Source: Paracoccaceae bacterium
GTDB lineage: Bacteria; Pseudomonadota; Alphaproteobacteria; Rhodobacterales; Rhodobacteraceae
Length of the DNA stretch: 11,718 nt
Reading direction: 5' to 3'
NCBI GenBank assembly: GCA_003512825.1
Contig: DOOI01000081.1
Location: 1-11,718, forward strand
Part shown: piece after piece, positions 6,950 to 11,718 of the stretch
Layout of the letters: every line of letters starts with the position of its first letter
Position numbering within the stretch: the first letter of the stretch is position 1
Made by a program: the position numbers and the translations under genes
The notes under the pieces: model-generated
What the model was told of the DNA's origin: nothing
The model's database searches: none
What the model saw: the letters and a program-made list of their open reading frames with translations, nothing else

Positions 6950-8341
6950 TCAGCCAAACACGCGGGTCAATGCGCCGTCCACGGCAGAGATGATTTGGTT
7001 GATGTCATCTTTTGTGGCGATCAGCGCGGGCGAGAAGCACAGCGTGTTGTTGAGACCGGGCAGCGAGCGGTTGGTCGCGCCGATGATCACGCCTTGCTCC
7101 ATGCAGTCTTTGACCACGGCTTGCACCCGGCTTTCGTCCATGGCTTCGCGCGTGTCGCGATCTTTGACCAATTCCGCACCAAGGAACAGGCCCTTGCCGC
7201 GGGCTTGGCCGATTACCTTGTGCTTGTCCGACAGCGCGTTCAGCTGATCGAGCATATAATCGCCCATTGCGGTGCAATTGCCCAAGAGATTTTCATCTTC
7301 GATGATCCGCATATTTTCGATGGCTGCTGCGGGGCCTGCGGTGCAGCCGCCGAAGGTGGAGATGTCGCGGAAGTAGTTCATTGGGTCCGACGCGTCGTCC
7401 TTGAACATGTTGAACACCTCTTCCGTGGTCACGAGGCAGGCGATGGCCGCATAGCCAGACGCCACGCCTTTGGCCATGGTCACCATGTCGGGCTTGATGC
7501 CGTAATGCTGGTAACCAAACCATGTGCCGGTGCGGCCGACGCCGCAGACGACTTCGTCGATATGCAACAAGATGTCATATTTCTTGCAGATTTCCTGCAC
7601 CCGGTCCCAATAGCCTTTGGGGGGCACAATCACGCCGCCGCCTGCGGTAACGGGCTCAAGGCAGAGGCCGCCGACGGTGTCGGGGCCTTCGGCGAGGATC
7701 ACTTGCTCGATCTGATTGGCCGCCCATTCGCCGTAGTTGTCCAAATCGGCGCCCGGTTGTTGGAAGGCGCGGTATTCGAGGCAATGGGGAACGCGCACGA
7801 AGCCGGGCGTGAACGGCCCATACTGCGCGTTGCGCTCATCCTGACCGCCAGCCGAGAGGCAGCCGATGGTGGTGCCGTGATAGTCGCGCTCACGGTACAG
7901 AACTTTGTGCTTTTTGCCGCCATAGCGTTTGTGGGCAATTTGGCGGATCATCTTGAAGGCCTTCTCATTGGCCTCCGATCCGGAGTTGGTGTAATAGACG
8001 CGCGACAGGCCGGGCATTTTCTCGATCAGTTTTTCGGAGAAAATAGCGCCGGGGATCGAGCCTGCGGAGCCTGCGAAGTAGCACAGTTTCAGCAGCTGAT
8101 CTCGCACGGCATTGGCGATGCTTTCGCGGCCATAGCCCACGTTGACCGTCCAGACGCCACCGGAGACGGCATCGAGATGTTCTTTGCCTTTCTGGTCCCA
8201 GACACGCATGCCTTTGCCTTCGACGATGATGCGGGGATCAACCGTTTCATAGGGCTTGTGCTGTGAGAGGTGGTGCCAGACGTGGGCGCGGTCTGCGTCC
8301 ACGACGGCTTGGATGTCATTGTCGAATTTTCCGTCCATCAT
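6950..8341 (-). CDS. tpa: Taurine:pyruvate aminotransferase
   Basis: A 463-residue class III (omega) aminotransferase. It moves the amino group of taurine to pyruvate, giving sulfoacetaldehyde and L-alanine, the entry step of taurine dissimilation. Numbering from ATG 8341: the Tpa-like N-terminus DADRAHVWHHLSQHKP; SGGVWTVNVGYG (60-71); TNSGSEANEKAF (118-129); RDYHGTT (152-158); HIDEVVCGVGRTG (260-272) with the cofactor Asp262; and the Schiff-base Lys291 in TMAKGVASGY. The sequence agrees closely with what I remember of roseobacter and Bilophila Tpa, and the divergent tauABC supports it. The frame is open to ATG 8374, but GGAG stands 6 bases before ATG 8341 and the family N-terminus is MDGKFDND-like, so 8341 (or 8338) is preferred. 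A CTGGCCCTAT direct repeat about 100 bases upstream suggests TauR activation. Other beta-alanine:pyruvate-type activity is possible but less likely. Confidence 0.93.
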   Translation of the reverse strand: MMDGKFDNDIQAVVDADRAHVWHHLSQHKPYETVDPRIIVEGKGMRVWDQKGKEHLDAVSGGVWTVNVGYGRESIANAVRDQLLKLCYFAGSAGSIPGAIFSEKLIEKMPGLSRVYYTNSGSEANEKAFKMIRQIAHKRYGGKKHKVLYRERDYHGTTIGCLSAGGQDERNAQYGPFTPGFVRVPHCLEYRAFQQPGADLDNYGEWAANQIEQVILAEGPDTVGGLCLEPVTAGGGVIVPPKGYWDRVQEICKKYDILLHIDEVVCGVGRTGTWFGYQHYGIKPDMVTMAKGVASGYAAIACLVTTEEVFNMFKDDASDPMNYFRDISTFGGCTAGPAAAIENMRIIEDENLLGNCTAMGDYMLDQLNALSDKHKVIGQARGKGLFLGAELVKDRDTREAMDESRVQAVVKDCMEQGVIIGATNRSLPGLNNTLCFSPALIATKDDINQIISAVDGALTRVFG

Positions 8342-8735
8342 GGGGTGCTCCAAGTTTAGGGTGCCGCGAGGCATGCGGGAAAGCCCCGCTCGGGAACGGG
8401 GATGTCTGGAAACTATCTCATGCCGAAAGCTGTGAGAAAATAGGGCCAGCCGCTCTATGCTTATAGGGCCAGACGGTGGCGCTTGAGGTGGTGAAAACCG
8501 TGGGATGAAAGGCTAAGCCCTTCTGGGAAAGCCGAAAGTTTCTTTTAGTGATGCTGAAAAGAGTGGCTGGGCTAGGGAATATCGCAGGCATGAAGGCAGA
8601 AAAACATTGAAGGGAATCACGATTTCCCGTCCGAATAGGAAGGACTGGGTGGCATCGGGCTGCCCGTCGTTACGCAACGTGAGCACCGCGACCCGGCAAA
8701 GAGGCGCGGGCTCTGCGTCAACAGGGAGACGACAG
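8342..8735. promoter_or_regulatory. Divergent tpa/tauABC control region
   Basis: These 394 bases separate the starts of tpa and tauA and hold no credible gene; the reading frames that cross it are extensions or shadows. It contains the CTGGCCCTAT direct repeat (8440-8472). It also has a small hairpin, CCCCG/CGGGG (8384-8401), in the expected tpa leader. An inverted pair GGGAA/TTCCC (8612-8628) lies about 110 bases before tauA. On the minus strand TTTTCT and GATAGT, 17 bases apart and just downstream of the repeat, are a weak candidate promoter, as expected if an activator is needed. I see no strong promoter for tauA. Confidence 0.6.
8440..8472 (-). promoter_or_regulatory. Direct repeat CTGGCCCTAT x2, probable TauR (MocR-type) binding site
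   Basis: Read on the minus strand, CTGGCCCTAT occurs twice in the same orientation (8463-8472 and 8440-8449), start to start 23 bases apart, about two helical turns. From memory, the R. capsulatus tpa promoter has direct repeats CTGGACYTAA bound by TauR, a GntR/MocR-family activator; each copy here agrees at 8 of 10 positions. The repeat ends about 100 bases upstream of tpa and would sit just behind or over its -35 region. It could also serve tauABC in the other direction. The TauR gene itself is not in the window. Confidence 0.65.
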
Positions 8736-9737
8736 ATGAACATTCGTACAAAATTGATGTCGGCGGTCGCGAGCACCGCGATGCTTGCGGGCACTTCGGC
8801 CATGGCAATGGACGAAATCACGGTTGGCTATTTCCTCGAGTGGCCGATGCCTTTCCAAGCAGCAAAAGTAGCGGGCACTTATGACGCAGAGATGGGCGTC
8901 AAGGTGAACTGGCGTGCGTTCGACACAGGCACCGCAATGTCGGCTGCAATGGCGTCGGGCGATGTGCACCTTTCGGTAAGCCAAGGCGTGCCGCCGTTCG
9001 TGGTGGCGACGTCGGCTGGTCAGGATTTGCAGATCGTCGATGTGGCGGTGTCTTACTCGGATAACGACAACTGCGTTGTTGCGTCTGGTCTTGAGATCAC
9101 CAAGGACAATGCTGCCGAATTGGCGGGCAAGAAGGTTGCCGTGCCGTTGGGCACAGCCGCGCATTACGGTTTCCTCAAGCAGATGTCGCATTTTGGTGTG
9201 GACGTGGGCGCGATGGAAGTTGTGAACATGGCCCCGCCTGAAGGGGCTGCTGCGATTGCACAGGGTGCGGTTGATATGTTCTGCGGTTGGGGCGGTTCGC
9301 TGCGTCGTGCCAAGGAGCATGGCAATGTGCTGCTGACGGGTGCAGAGAAAGAAGAGCTTGGCATTTTGGTGTTTGACGTGACGACGGCGCCTGCGGGCTT
9401 TGCGGCGGAGAACCCCGATCTGTTGGCCAAGTTCCTCAAGGTGACAGCAGATGCCAACGCAACATGGAATGCCGGTGGTGACGCCGCCAAGGCGATGATC
9501 CCGGTCATTGCAAAAGACGCAGGCATGGATGAGCAAGGCACTGCCGATACGATGGCGACCTTCATCTTCCCGTCGGTGGAAGATCAGCTGGGTGCCAAGT
9601 GGCTTGGTGGCGGCGCGCAAGCGTTCATGCAGGGTGTGGCACAGGTGTTTGTGGATGCGGGATCGATCCCGTCCAAGCTCGACAGCTATGATGCGGCTGT
9701 GAACCTCGGCCCGCTGAAAGCGTCTAGCGGAATGTAA
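8736..9737 (+). CDS. tauA: Taurine ABC transporter, periplasmic binding protein
   Basis: A 333-residue exported solute-binding protein of the TauA/SsuA/NitT class. The signal peptide covers residues 1-24, with basic residues at 4 and 6, a hydrophobic core, and a SAMA cleavage site before MDE. The mature protein starts ITVGYFLEWPMPFQAAK, typical of taurine binders, and continues with SQGVPPFVVA (82-91) and GKKVAVPLGTAAHYGF (131-146), where the binding cleft is formed. It should capture taurine in the periplasm and deliver it to TauC. The frame is open upstream to 8607, but GGGAG seven bases before ATG 8736 and the signal peptide beginning there fix the start. It is followed by a hairpin and then tauB, 98 bases on. 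Aliphatic sulfonate binding is the alternative; the divergent tpa argues for taurine. Confidence 0.92.
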   Translation: MNIRTKLMSAVASTAMLAGTSAMAMDEITVGYFLEWPMPFQAAKVAGTYDAEMGVKVNWRAFDTGTAMSAAMASGDVHLSVSQGVPPFVVATSAGQDLQIVDVAVSYSDNDNCVVASGLEITKDNAAELAGKKVAVPLGTAAHYGFLKQMSHFGVDVGAMEVVNMAPPEGAAAIAQGAVDMFCGWGGSLRRAKEHGNVLLTGAEKEELGILVFDVTTAPAGFAAENPDLLAKFLKVTADANATWNAGGDAAKAMIPVIAKDAGMDEQGTADTMATFIFPSVEDQLGAKWLGGGAQAFMQGVAQVFVDAGSIPSKLDSYDAAVNLGPLKASSGM

Positions 9738-9835: not shown

Positions 9836-10645
9836 ATGGCTTTCCTTGAGATAGATCGTTTGTCGATGCGGTTTGACCTGCCGAATGGTGCGTCAGTTCA
9901 AGCATTGAAGGACGTGAGCCTGACGTTGAAGTCGGGAGAATTGCTGAGTGTGCTGGGGCCATCGGGCTGTGGCAAGACGACGTTGCTGAACATCGTGGCG
10001 GGTTTTTTGGCGCCGACCGAGGGGCAGATCCGGCTGAATGGACAGCGGGTGATTGGGCCAGCACGGGAACGTGGGATGGTGTTTCAGCAAGGCGCGCTTT
10101 TTGAATGGATGAGCGTGCGCGACAACGTGAGCTTTGGGCCACGGATGAAGGGACAACGAGAGGCGGAATGGAAGGGCACGGTGGATCACCTGCTCAATGT
10201 CGTGGGCCTGCGCGATTTCAAGGAAAAGGCGGTTTATGAGCTGTCTGGTGGGATGCAGCAGCGCGTGGCCTTGGCGCGGTGTCTGGCCAATGATCCGGAT
10301 GTGATCTTGATGGATGAACCGCTGGGGGCGCTGGACGCGTTGACCCGCGAGAAGATGCAGGGGCTGGTGCTCAAGCTGTGGAAAGAGACGGGCAAGACGA
10401 TCATCTTGATCACCCACTCTGTCGAAGAAGCGCTGTTGCTGGGGGAGCGGTTGATTGTGATGGCACCGCGTCCGGGGCGGATACATAAGGAATATCGTTT
10501 GCCCTTTGCCGATATGGGCGTGAGCCGCGATTTGCGGAGCGTCAAGAAGGAAGCGGAGTTTGGGGAGCGCCGGGAAGAGATTCTGGGCATGATTTGGGAC
10601 ATGGAAGAAGAGATCATGGGCCGCACAGAAGGAGCTGACGCATGA
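9836..10645 (+). CDS. tauB: Taurine ABC transporter, ATP-binding protein
   Basis: A 269-residue ABC ATPase of the TauB/SsuB/NrtD class that powers taurine import from the cytoplasmic face. All nucleotide-site motifs are present: Walker A GPSGCGKT (41-48), the Q-loop in MVFQQGALFEW (81-91), signature LSGGMQQR (136-143), Walker B VILMDEP (156-162) followed by LGALDALTR, and the switch His194 in LITHSVEEA. Residues from about 225 on form a short charged tail. AAGGGG lies 5 bases before ATG 9836. Its TGA stop overlaps the tauC ATG in ATGA, a layout that usually couples translation of the two subunits. Confidence 0.94.
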   Translation: MAFLEIDRLSMRFDLPNGASVQALKDVSLTLKSGELLSVLGPSGCGKTTLLNIVAGFLAPTEGQIRLNGQRVIGPARERGMVFQQGALFEWMSVRDNVSFGPRMKGQREAEWKGTVDHLLNVVGLRDFKEKAVYELSGGMQQRVALARCLANDPDVILMDEPLGALDALTREKMQGLVLKLWKETGKTIILITHSVEEALLLGERLIVMAPRPGRIHKEYRLPFADMGVSRDLRSVKKEAEFGERREEILGMIWDMEEEIMGRTEGADA

Positions 10646-11718
10646 TCCCTTTTGCAGCTTATGTTTTCATCTTTGTGACCTCCTTCTTCATCGTCCGGGT
10701 GGGCCTGAAGAAGATGTTCGAGAAGCATGACTTCACCTCGCTCAAGACTGTGACGTTTGGTGATGAGAGCGCGGTGCGGCCGGATCGGGTGGCAAGTGTC
10801 GTGTCGATCTTGACCATTTTCGTGATCTGGGGAGCATTTACCGGCTCAAAATGGTTGCCGGTCCATATGCCCGGCCCATTTTTGGGCGATACGGAATTTA
10901 CCTATACTGTCGAAGATGGAACCGGCGCGCGCGATGAGGCGCAAGTCAAAGTGCGGGTTTTCAAGGTGGGCGATACGGTGGAAGACCGTGGAGTGGAGCC
11001 GGGCGAAGGATTTGCCAAGGATGACGTGCTCTCGGTAGGGGCGATGCGCTCTAAGTTATTGATCTGGGACGGTAATGACGACCTCAAGCGCAAAGACGGC
11101 GCAAAGGTGGTGGCAATCGAAGGTCAACCCGTTGCGCCGGGTGTCAAGGTGGATGTGGCAAACGGCACGGTGACGGTAACCGAAAAAGGCACCCTGAATT
11201 TCGCCCCGCAAAAGGGCATGCAGATGGAGGCCATCTGGCTGCCGCCGCCCGAAGCTGTTTTGGCGCGTGTGGGAGAGATCGCGCGCGAGGGCTATCAGAA
11301 CTTCACATTGTGGCAGCATCTGGGGTGGTCGCTTTACCGGGTGGTTCTGGGCTTTGTACTTGGGTCTTTGGTAGGGATTCCTTTGGGCTATGCGATGGGT
11401 CTGTCGGACTGGTTCCGGGGTTGGTTTGATCCGATTGTGGAATTCATGCGCCCTGTTCCGCCTTTGGCGCTGATCCCCTTGGTGATTATTTGGGCCGGGA
11501 TTGGAGAAAGCGGAAAGATCATTCTGCTGTTCCTTGCAGCGCTGTGGATCATGGTGATTGCCGCACGATCTGGTGTTTCGGGGGTGCGGATTTCAAAGGT
11601 CCATGCTGCCTATTCGTTGGGCGCGTCGAAGTGGCAGGTGCTGCGGCATGTGATCATTCCGAATTCGCTGCCCGATATCTTTACCGGAGCACGGGTGGCG
11701 ATGGGCGTTTGCTGGGGC
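10642..11718 (+). CDS. tauC: Taurine ABC transporter permease with extra helix and periplasmic insertion, 3' end missing
   Basis: The first 359 codons of a permease that runs off the right edge. AAGGAG lies 7 bases before ATG 10642. The core from LWQHLGWSLYRVVLGF (223-238) onward is canonical TauC: RPVPPLALIPLVIIW (270-284), then the EAA loop AAYSLGASKWQVL (322-334) that docks on TauB. The part before it is unusual. E. coli TauC has one helix, then LPPP, within about 60 residues; here LPPP is at 200-203. There is an extra hydrophobic helix at about 4-22, the expected first core helix at about 51-68, then an insertion of about 117 residues (81-197) before LPPP. The insertion has no hydrophobic segment and contains FTYTVEDGTGARDEAQVKV and NGTVTVTEKGTLNFAP, which resemble cadherin-like/tandem Ig repeats. 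With a cytoplasmic EAA loop and standard core topology, it should face the periplasm. Confidence 0.9.
   Translation, partial: MIPFAAYVFIFVTSFFIVRVGLKKMFEKHDFTSLKTVTFGDESAVRPDRVASVVSILTIFVIWGAFTGSKWLPVHMPGPFLGDTEFTYTVEDGTGARDEAQVKVRVFKVGDTVEDRGVEPGEGFAKDDVLSVGAMRSKLLIWDGNDDLKRKDGAKVVAIEGQPVAPGVKVDVANGTVTVTEKGTLNFAPQKGMQMEAIWLPPPEAVLARVGEIAREGYQNFTLWQHLGWSLYRVVLGFVLGSLVGIPLGYAMGLSDWFRGWFDPIVEFMRPVPPLALIPLVIIWAGIGESGKIILLFLAALWIMVIAARSGVSGVRISKVHAAYSLGASKWQVLRHVIIPNSLPDIFTGARVAMGVCWG

Follow-up and report, generated by a model that had tools for sequence, protein, structure and literature searches.

The taurine-type ATP-binding cassette importer permease TauC, encoded at the end of an 11,718-nucleotide stretch of a Paracoccaceae genome (contig DOOI01000081.1 of assembly GCA_003512825.1, family Rhodobacteraceae, class Alphaproteobacteria; hereafter the window), carries two additions to the ordinary permease core: an extra N-terminal helix and a 115-residue domain inserted between core transmembrane helix 1 and the LPPP motif. 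Judged from profile comparisons, the insert is one period of an immunoglobulin (Ig)/cadherin-like Big_9 repeat, circularly permuted. This anatomy, an extra helix together with a captured permuted domain, is in our view very probable.

Big_9 (PF17963), Cadherin_5 (PF17892) and the tandem-95 repeats of adhesin-like proteins form the same sequence family as the TauC insert, which differs from Big_9 arrays in being a single copy, circularly permuted and lodged within a membrane transporter. Matches to the Pfam Big_9 profile at an expectation value (E) ≤0.01 are found in 76 of the 84 inserts scanned, and scores of 30.7 and 34.5 bits exceed the gathering cut-off of 23.6. No whole-profile match in N- to C-terminal order was found in the insert: the end of the profile matches first, its last 25 positions aligning with TauC residues 80-104, and in some relatives the first part of the profile matches further downstream. 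A long single-stretch match to the repeat was obtained only once the insert had been rotated. Against a canonical-phase model made from 82 whole repeats of repeat-protein loci, 91 non-identical inserts, rotated at 22 points, scored a median of 17.3 bits across 30 of 95 positions in their natural order and 32.5 bits across 88 positions when rotated at residue 113. The score curve has its maximum between residues 107 and 125, in the structureless stretch linking the two halves. Shuffled inserts had a median of -1.3 bits and a maximum of 7.6. The training repeats reach a median of 91.2 bits against their own model, so that the inserts must be well diverged. With a cut at residue 113, 83 of 91 inserts yield two halves that each score more than 5 bits; in every one of these 83 the second half maps upstream of the first. 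By eye, the two insert ends, 'GPFLGDTEF' and 'NFAPQKG', land in one loop of the repeat ('YTPxxxFxGTDSF'), and the insert can therefore be read as one period of a tandem array taken out of phase. The insert profile also finds long repeat proteins, with 15 of 21 matches covering at least positions 18-121 of 137; two such loci are, by eye, tandem repeats.

The first-pass annotation of this DNA had placed the insert at residues 81-197. The insert itself is confirmed, with limits now revised to 78-192 by comparison with insert-free relatives that retain both flanks ('...AFTGSKWLPVHMP' before, 'MQMEAIWLPPP' after). That annotation was also right in recognising the extra helix, modelled at residues 2-26 by AlphaFold2 and accompanied by a hydropathy peak, in placing the insert between core helix 1 and LPPP with the ordinary permease resuming at WLPPP, and in assigning it to a loop predicted to be periplasmic. 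The tauC frame is open from 10642 up to the window end (359 residues). Because the contig shows a run of N right after the window, P0002, a protein of 421 residues with 99% identity across all 359 window residues, was taken as full-length TauC. This run, 274 bases inside tauC (L001 2578-2851), is flanked on both sides by an identical 22 bases and may be an unmerged overlap instead of missing sequence. AlphaFold2 gave full TauC (64 rows) a mean predicted local distance difference test score (pLDDT) of 82.9 and a predicted template modelling score (pTM) of 0.70. The insert alone (84 rows) is predicted to fold as a beta domain of eight strands (pLDDT 87.1, pTM 0.78), and its linker (residues 108-127) has in the models neither strands nor helices of at least 3-4 residues. 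A profile search of solved structures provided leads only, the first hairpin of the insert giving the best stretch each time: a KIAA0319-like protein (E 0.012), then one RTX protein (0.031) and one cadherin-domain protein (0.034).

Far from being unusual for TauC in its own group, the insert is widespread. A profile of ten inserts matched 141 of 295 sampled genomes of the family at E≤1e-15, which rules out an assembly or frameshift artefact and disposes of the sequencing error that the first-pass annotation had considered. There is one copy per genome, except in one genome where the gene is split across two contigs. Among the best 120 of 5,080 protein matches, 119 have 421-422 residues and one has 391. 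A search of the family with the TauC core found 158 genomes at E≤1e-30, including the 141 with the insert. The other 17 comprise one with TauC pieces at contig starts (G597), one with an insert-free relative (G651) and 15 taken as ordinary TauC by E-value (1e-31 to 1e-52), six of which were inspected (L134, L167-L171) and have no insert. In this search, the insert accompanies every TauC core with 74% or more identity to that of the window, provided that the upstream region is assembled, and no clear loss was seen within the insert clade. In a sample of 385 genomes of the class, the insert lies within TauC in five: three of the family, the window's own counted, and two of other families (G359, G404). 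A further 14 genomes have an insert-profile match (E≤1e-5) in frames of 447 to 8,907 residues. Among the best 80 of 577 relatives in named genomes, carriers include Ruegeria pomeroyi, Roseobacter, Sulfitobacter, Tateyamaria, Litoreibacter and Loktanella, the R. pomeroyi example being strain SZCCDBG043 (L276). The insert form is thus the standard TauC of roseobacters, R. pomeroyi included, which answers the earlier question of whether it is common among them. It had been allowed that the form might prove to be standard and already described. Standard it is in distribution; no description or stated role of the insert was found in full-text literature searches that took in few subscription papers.

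Relatives of graded complexity indicate how this architecture may have arisen. Form i is a short TauC with a KTVxFGD motif, without extra helix or insert, found for example in Pseudovibrio, Afifella and Marinomonas. Form ii consists of two 291-residue proteins (P0150, P0153) with the loop 'AFTGSxWxxIHAPxSWQMxPIWLPPPE' and no extra helix. Form iii, 27 proteins of exactly 308 residues (P0123-P0149, of which P0140 is labelled Alkalilacustris), has both helix and loop without the domain, and form iv is the insert form. Altogether, 30 of the 120 proteins listed (P0123-P0151, P0153) are insert-free with the same flanks. The TauC of L269 and L282 also has the extra helix and both insert flanks without the domain. 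A hydrophobic first helix, defined as a 19-residue hydrophobic stretch of 1.6 or more ahead of the FGD motif, is present in all 102 insert-form loci fetched (from 90 genomes), in 98 by script and in four by eye just upstream of a misplaced start; it occurs in 27/27 proteins of form iii, 0/2 of form ii and 0/53 scored of 54 rows of the short form.

The main tree was built from the last 225 residues of TauC, a stretch that does not include the insert, with 82 chosen rows and a midpoint root. In it the insert form makes up one clade (51 rows, support 99/98), and the short forms lie across the root from it (11 rows, 99/95). Between the two fall forms ii and iii, with their fork unresolved; 20 insert-free rows were used. 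The insert-form clade also appears in other trees (71 rows, 100/97; in a quick tree, 64 rows with support 96). The trees support a single origin of the domain with simpler relatives outside. The likely order of gain is loop, then helix, then domain, although, given that fork, loop and helix may have come in the opposite order. Derivation of the 308-residue relatives by secondary loss is not favoured, since they fall outside the insert clade (99/98); as a group they are themselves poorly supported (75/12), and a single early loss that preceded the spread of the insert clade is conceivable. The short-form TauC of L207, L222 and L241, from metagenome bins labelled Desulfobacula, Nitrospirales and Spirochaetia, groups among alphaproteobacterial forms, which may reflect gene transfer or wrong binning.

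The position of the insert has a counterpart in MalF, whose P2 domain is an Ig-like domain between core helices 1 and 2, the same location as that given for the TauC insert by the AlphaFold2 model and the alignment with CmpB and NrtB. The first-pass statement that permeases of this class rarely carry soluble domains at this site overlooks P2. MalF pairs with a permease chain unlike itself, giving one P2 per transporter, whereas TauC is expected to form a homodimer with two domains, and the two domains are assumed to be of independent origin. Titles of cited references indicate that MalF P2 interacts with MalE. The structures of CmpB and NrtB (9ua0, 9u9z, 8wm8) lack an insert, and their chains of 248-265 residues align across residues 39-419 of the TauC model. 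The E. coli TauC model (NCBIfam PRK10160, 275 positions) covers only residues 195-358 of the window protein: shared are the permease core from LPPP onward and the TauA- and TauB-type partner genes, whereas insert and extra helix belong to the roseobacter TauC. E. coli TauC itself presumably has neither.

A functional interpretation may be proposed on this basis. An ordinary taurine permease would have captured one tandem Ig/cadherin-like (Big_9) repeat period in its first periplasmic loop, the piece being circularly permuted because it begins and finishes within a single loop of the canonical repeat. The termini of an Ig-like repeat normally lie at opposite poles; those of the permuted repeat would be neighbours, suiting insertion into a loop. 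The domain would lie on the periplasmic face of each TauC in a TauC2 dimer and could help soluble TauA to dock at the translocation pathway or to remain close to it, in the way that MalF P2 does with MalE, and the extra N-terminal helix may brace the insert-bearing loop. By eye, the start of TauA is signal-like, without a lipobox cysteine. Taken as a whole, capture of a permuted repeat together with TauA docking is the explanation towards which we lean. The docking role in itself is put forward tentatively, the case for it falling a little short of the case against.

This role can be weighed by comparing pairwise divergences. The comparison drew on 59 long-flanked insert-form loci, each from a different genome, 57 of them with complete TauA, TauB and TauC; the other 43 of the 102 loci had short flanks or were not used. 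Once the divergence of the TauC core and TauB was removed, insert divergence still followed that of TauA (partial r 0.213, a value reached in 2 of 999 permutations). For TauB the corresponding value was -0.044 (751/999). The earlier suggestion that the insert bears on TauA docking thus draws some support from the TauA signal and from the MalF P2 analogy, evidence that is nonetheless weak. Two results weigh against capture and docking. Insert divergence follows its own TauC core most of all (partial r 0.439, 0/999), and fold searches with the insert domain gave weak matches and no convincing relative, so that the Ig fold is unconfirmed; a permutant can explain the want of a good match in order-dependent searches. 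In R. pomeroyi DSS-3, a mutant of SPO0676 reached a density on taurine 92.8% lower, with 49.1% less drawdown, and a mutant of SPO0674 a density 91.8% lower with no significant change in drawdown, as tabulated in PMC10130141 (Table 1). PMC4334477 annotates SPO0676 as tauC and SPO0674 as tauA. These mutants are of DSS-3, and the R. pomeroyi insert is known from strain SZCCDBG043.

The strong core signal would also be expected if the insert were a structural brace for TauC, acting on the dimer or on the first periplasmic loop without touching TauA. Its place, with helix 1 immediately before it and the LPPP helix immediately after, would fit such a role, and the relatives with an extra helix but no domain suggest that the domain came later than the helix. 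Linkage alone predicts the core signal, however, since core and insert share one polypeptide; moreover, the core is conserved far above the insert (column identity 0.87 against 0.56) and a brace leaves the separate TauA signal unexplained. A purely structural function seems unlikely. A passenger role, with the insert acquired by chance and tolerated as harmless, is less probable still. The persistence of insert-free relatives with the same flanks would agree with this, as would the variability of the insert, second only to that of the first helix (column identity 0.41) among the stretches compared. Against it stand the consistent presence of the insert in the genomes with closely related cores, with no clear loss, and its conserved columns (7 invariant and 18 nearly so, across 84 inserts taken with their short flanks). 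The ratio of nonsynonymous to synonymous substitution rates in the insert, moreover, is 0.02-0.26 in six of seven pairs (the seventh not computable), values that are rough because synonymous sites are near saturation; on these sequence comparisons the insert is under purifying selection. A sensor or attachment module for another ligand (calcium, peptidoglycan or another envelope part) is the least credible alternative: Big_9/cadherin-like repeats are found in adhesins and often bind calcium, the Asn-Asp of the repeat motif 'LANDxD' is retained in at least 90% of 84 inserts and the median net charge is -9 (103 inserts), but calcium is usually held at an inter-repeat site that a single domain does not have, and no gene of the operon points to another partner.

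A second and unrelated-looking insertion at the same site was found in five of the 385 class genomes (G231, G321, G237, G141, G246; L189-L193), where the TauC-like frame is about 640-650 residues long. By eye, these proteins show an N-terminal hydrophobic stretch; LPKP is preceded by a long insert, placed as in the roseobacter TauC, and followed by a second one. Two of the genomes are of 1.2-1.3 Mb, and TauA- and TauB-type genes adjoin in three of the five loci checked. None of the five matched the roseobacter insert profile (best E 0.43, negative score) or the repeat model, and in three scanned with Pfam only the permease was above cut-offs, the best of the remaining hits having E 0.0016. They form a separate clade (100/100) with insert-free forms between it and the insert clade, the placement of this long branch being unsure. 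With no profile match and separate clades, a common origin of the two inserts is not favoured, and we read the longer one as a probable independent event at the same site. More broadly, the loop joining core helices 1 and 2 might be a hot spot: importers of the TauC/MalF type would repeatedly gain unrelated periplasmic domains there, along with an additional helix at the N-terminus, as a means of capturing or holding the binding protein. Roseobacters would have done so through one out-of-phase period of an adhesin-type repeat whose ends fit a loop, with relatives showing the steps in order. Such a generalisation is speculative and more open to doubt than docking itself.

The coordinates of the features are collected in Table 1.

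Table 1. Genes of the window's taurine-type locus and features of TauC (positions in the window; residues of TauC).
Feature	Position	Strand	Remarks
Aminotransferase	6950..8374	-	precedes tauA/tauB/tauC on the opposite strand
tauA, taurine-type binding protein	8736..9737	+	taurine_ABC_bnd 163.8 bits, cut-off 304
tauB, ATPase	9836..10645	+	4-base overlap with tauC; TauB model 280.8 bits, cut-off 357
tauC, taurine-type importer permease	10642..11718	+	cut by the window end after 359 of ~421 residues
Extra N-terminal helix, residues 2-26	10645..10719	+	AlphaFold2; peak 19-residue hydropathy 2.08 at residue 4
Cytoplasmic motif KTVTFGDESA, residues 35-44	10744..10773	+	mean column identity 0.97 (64 rows)
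Core transmembrane helix 1, residues 49-67	10786..10842	+	AlphaFold2; CmpB and NrtB align from model residues 39-50 onward
Inserted domain, read as a circularly permuted Big_9 repeat, residues 78-192	10873..11217	+	115 residues
Insert strands, residues 82-91 and 97-107	10885..10962	+	match C-terminal end of canonical repeat (Big_9 profile 64-88)
Linker from the repeat's old C-terminus to its old N-terminus, residues 108-127	10963..11022	+	best rotation points here
Remainder of insert, residues 128-192	11023..11217	+	matches N-terminal two thirds of canonical repeat
WLPPP and next amphipathic helix, residues 199-216	11236..11289	+	ordinary permease resumes; NCBIfam TauC profile from residue 195

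The identity of the permease is supported by a BPD_transp_1 match in Pfam (70 bits, cut-off 26.4, E 2.9e-19) and by TauC as the top NCBIfam model (169.1 bits against an equivalog cut-off of 342, the query lacking ~62 C-terminal residues). TauA and TauB are likewise the best models for its neighbours, all three proteins of the window lying below the curated equivalog cut-offs. The aminotransferase is probably a taurine-pyruvate aminotransferase; no family match names it so, and the label follows the gene order of R. pomeroyi, annotated tpa-tauA-tauB-tauC (SPO0673-0676) in PMC4334477. The G+C content of the insert (0.574) is close to that of the TauC core (0.575). The cytoplasmic motif is more conserved than the transport core (column identity 0.97 against 0.87), residues 28-43 having a pLDDT below 50 in the AlphaFold2 model, and may bind TauB or a regulator. 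It is retained in varied form among the short-form relatives. Eight inserts (L080, L084, L085, L088, L089, L091, L092, L093) are 12-16 residues longer and carry an extra mid-domain stretch, for example 'DFDPNxRDxxGNLxQ', that extends one loop.

Taurine is described in the title of PMC6647121 as a major source of carbon and energy for marine prokaryotes, and the insert-bearing TauC is the ordinary taurine permease of roseobacters. Its permutation offers a clear natural example of a repeat array supplying a domain with adjoining ends. Relatives that have the helix but not the domain provide a ready comparison, both in nature and in R. pomeroyi DSS-3 as a laboratory strain. If the insert docks TauA, it would represent a second, probably independent, device of the MalF P2 kind.
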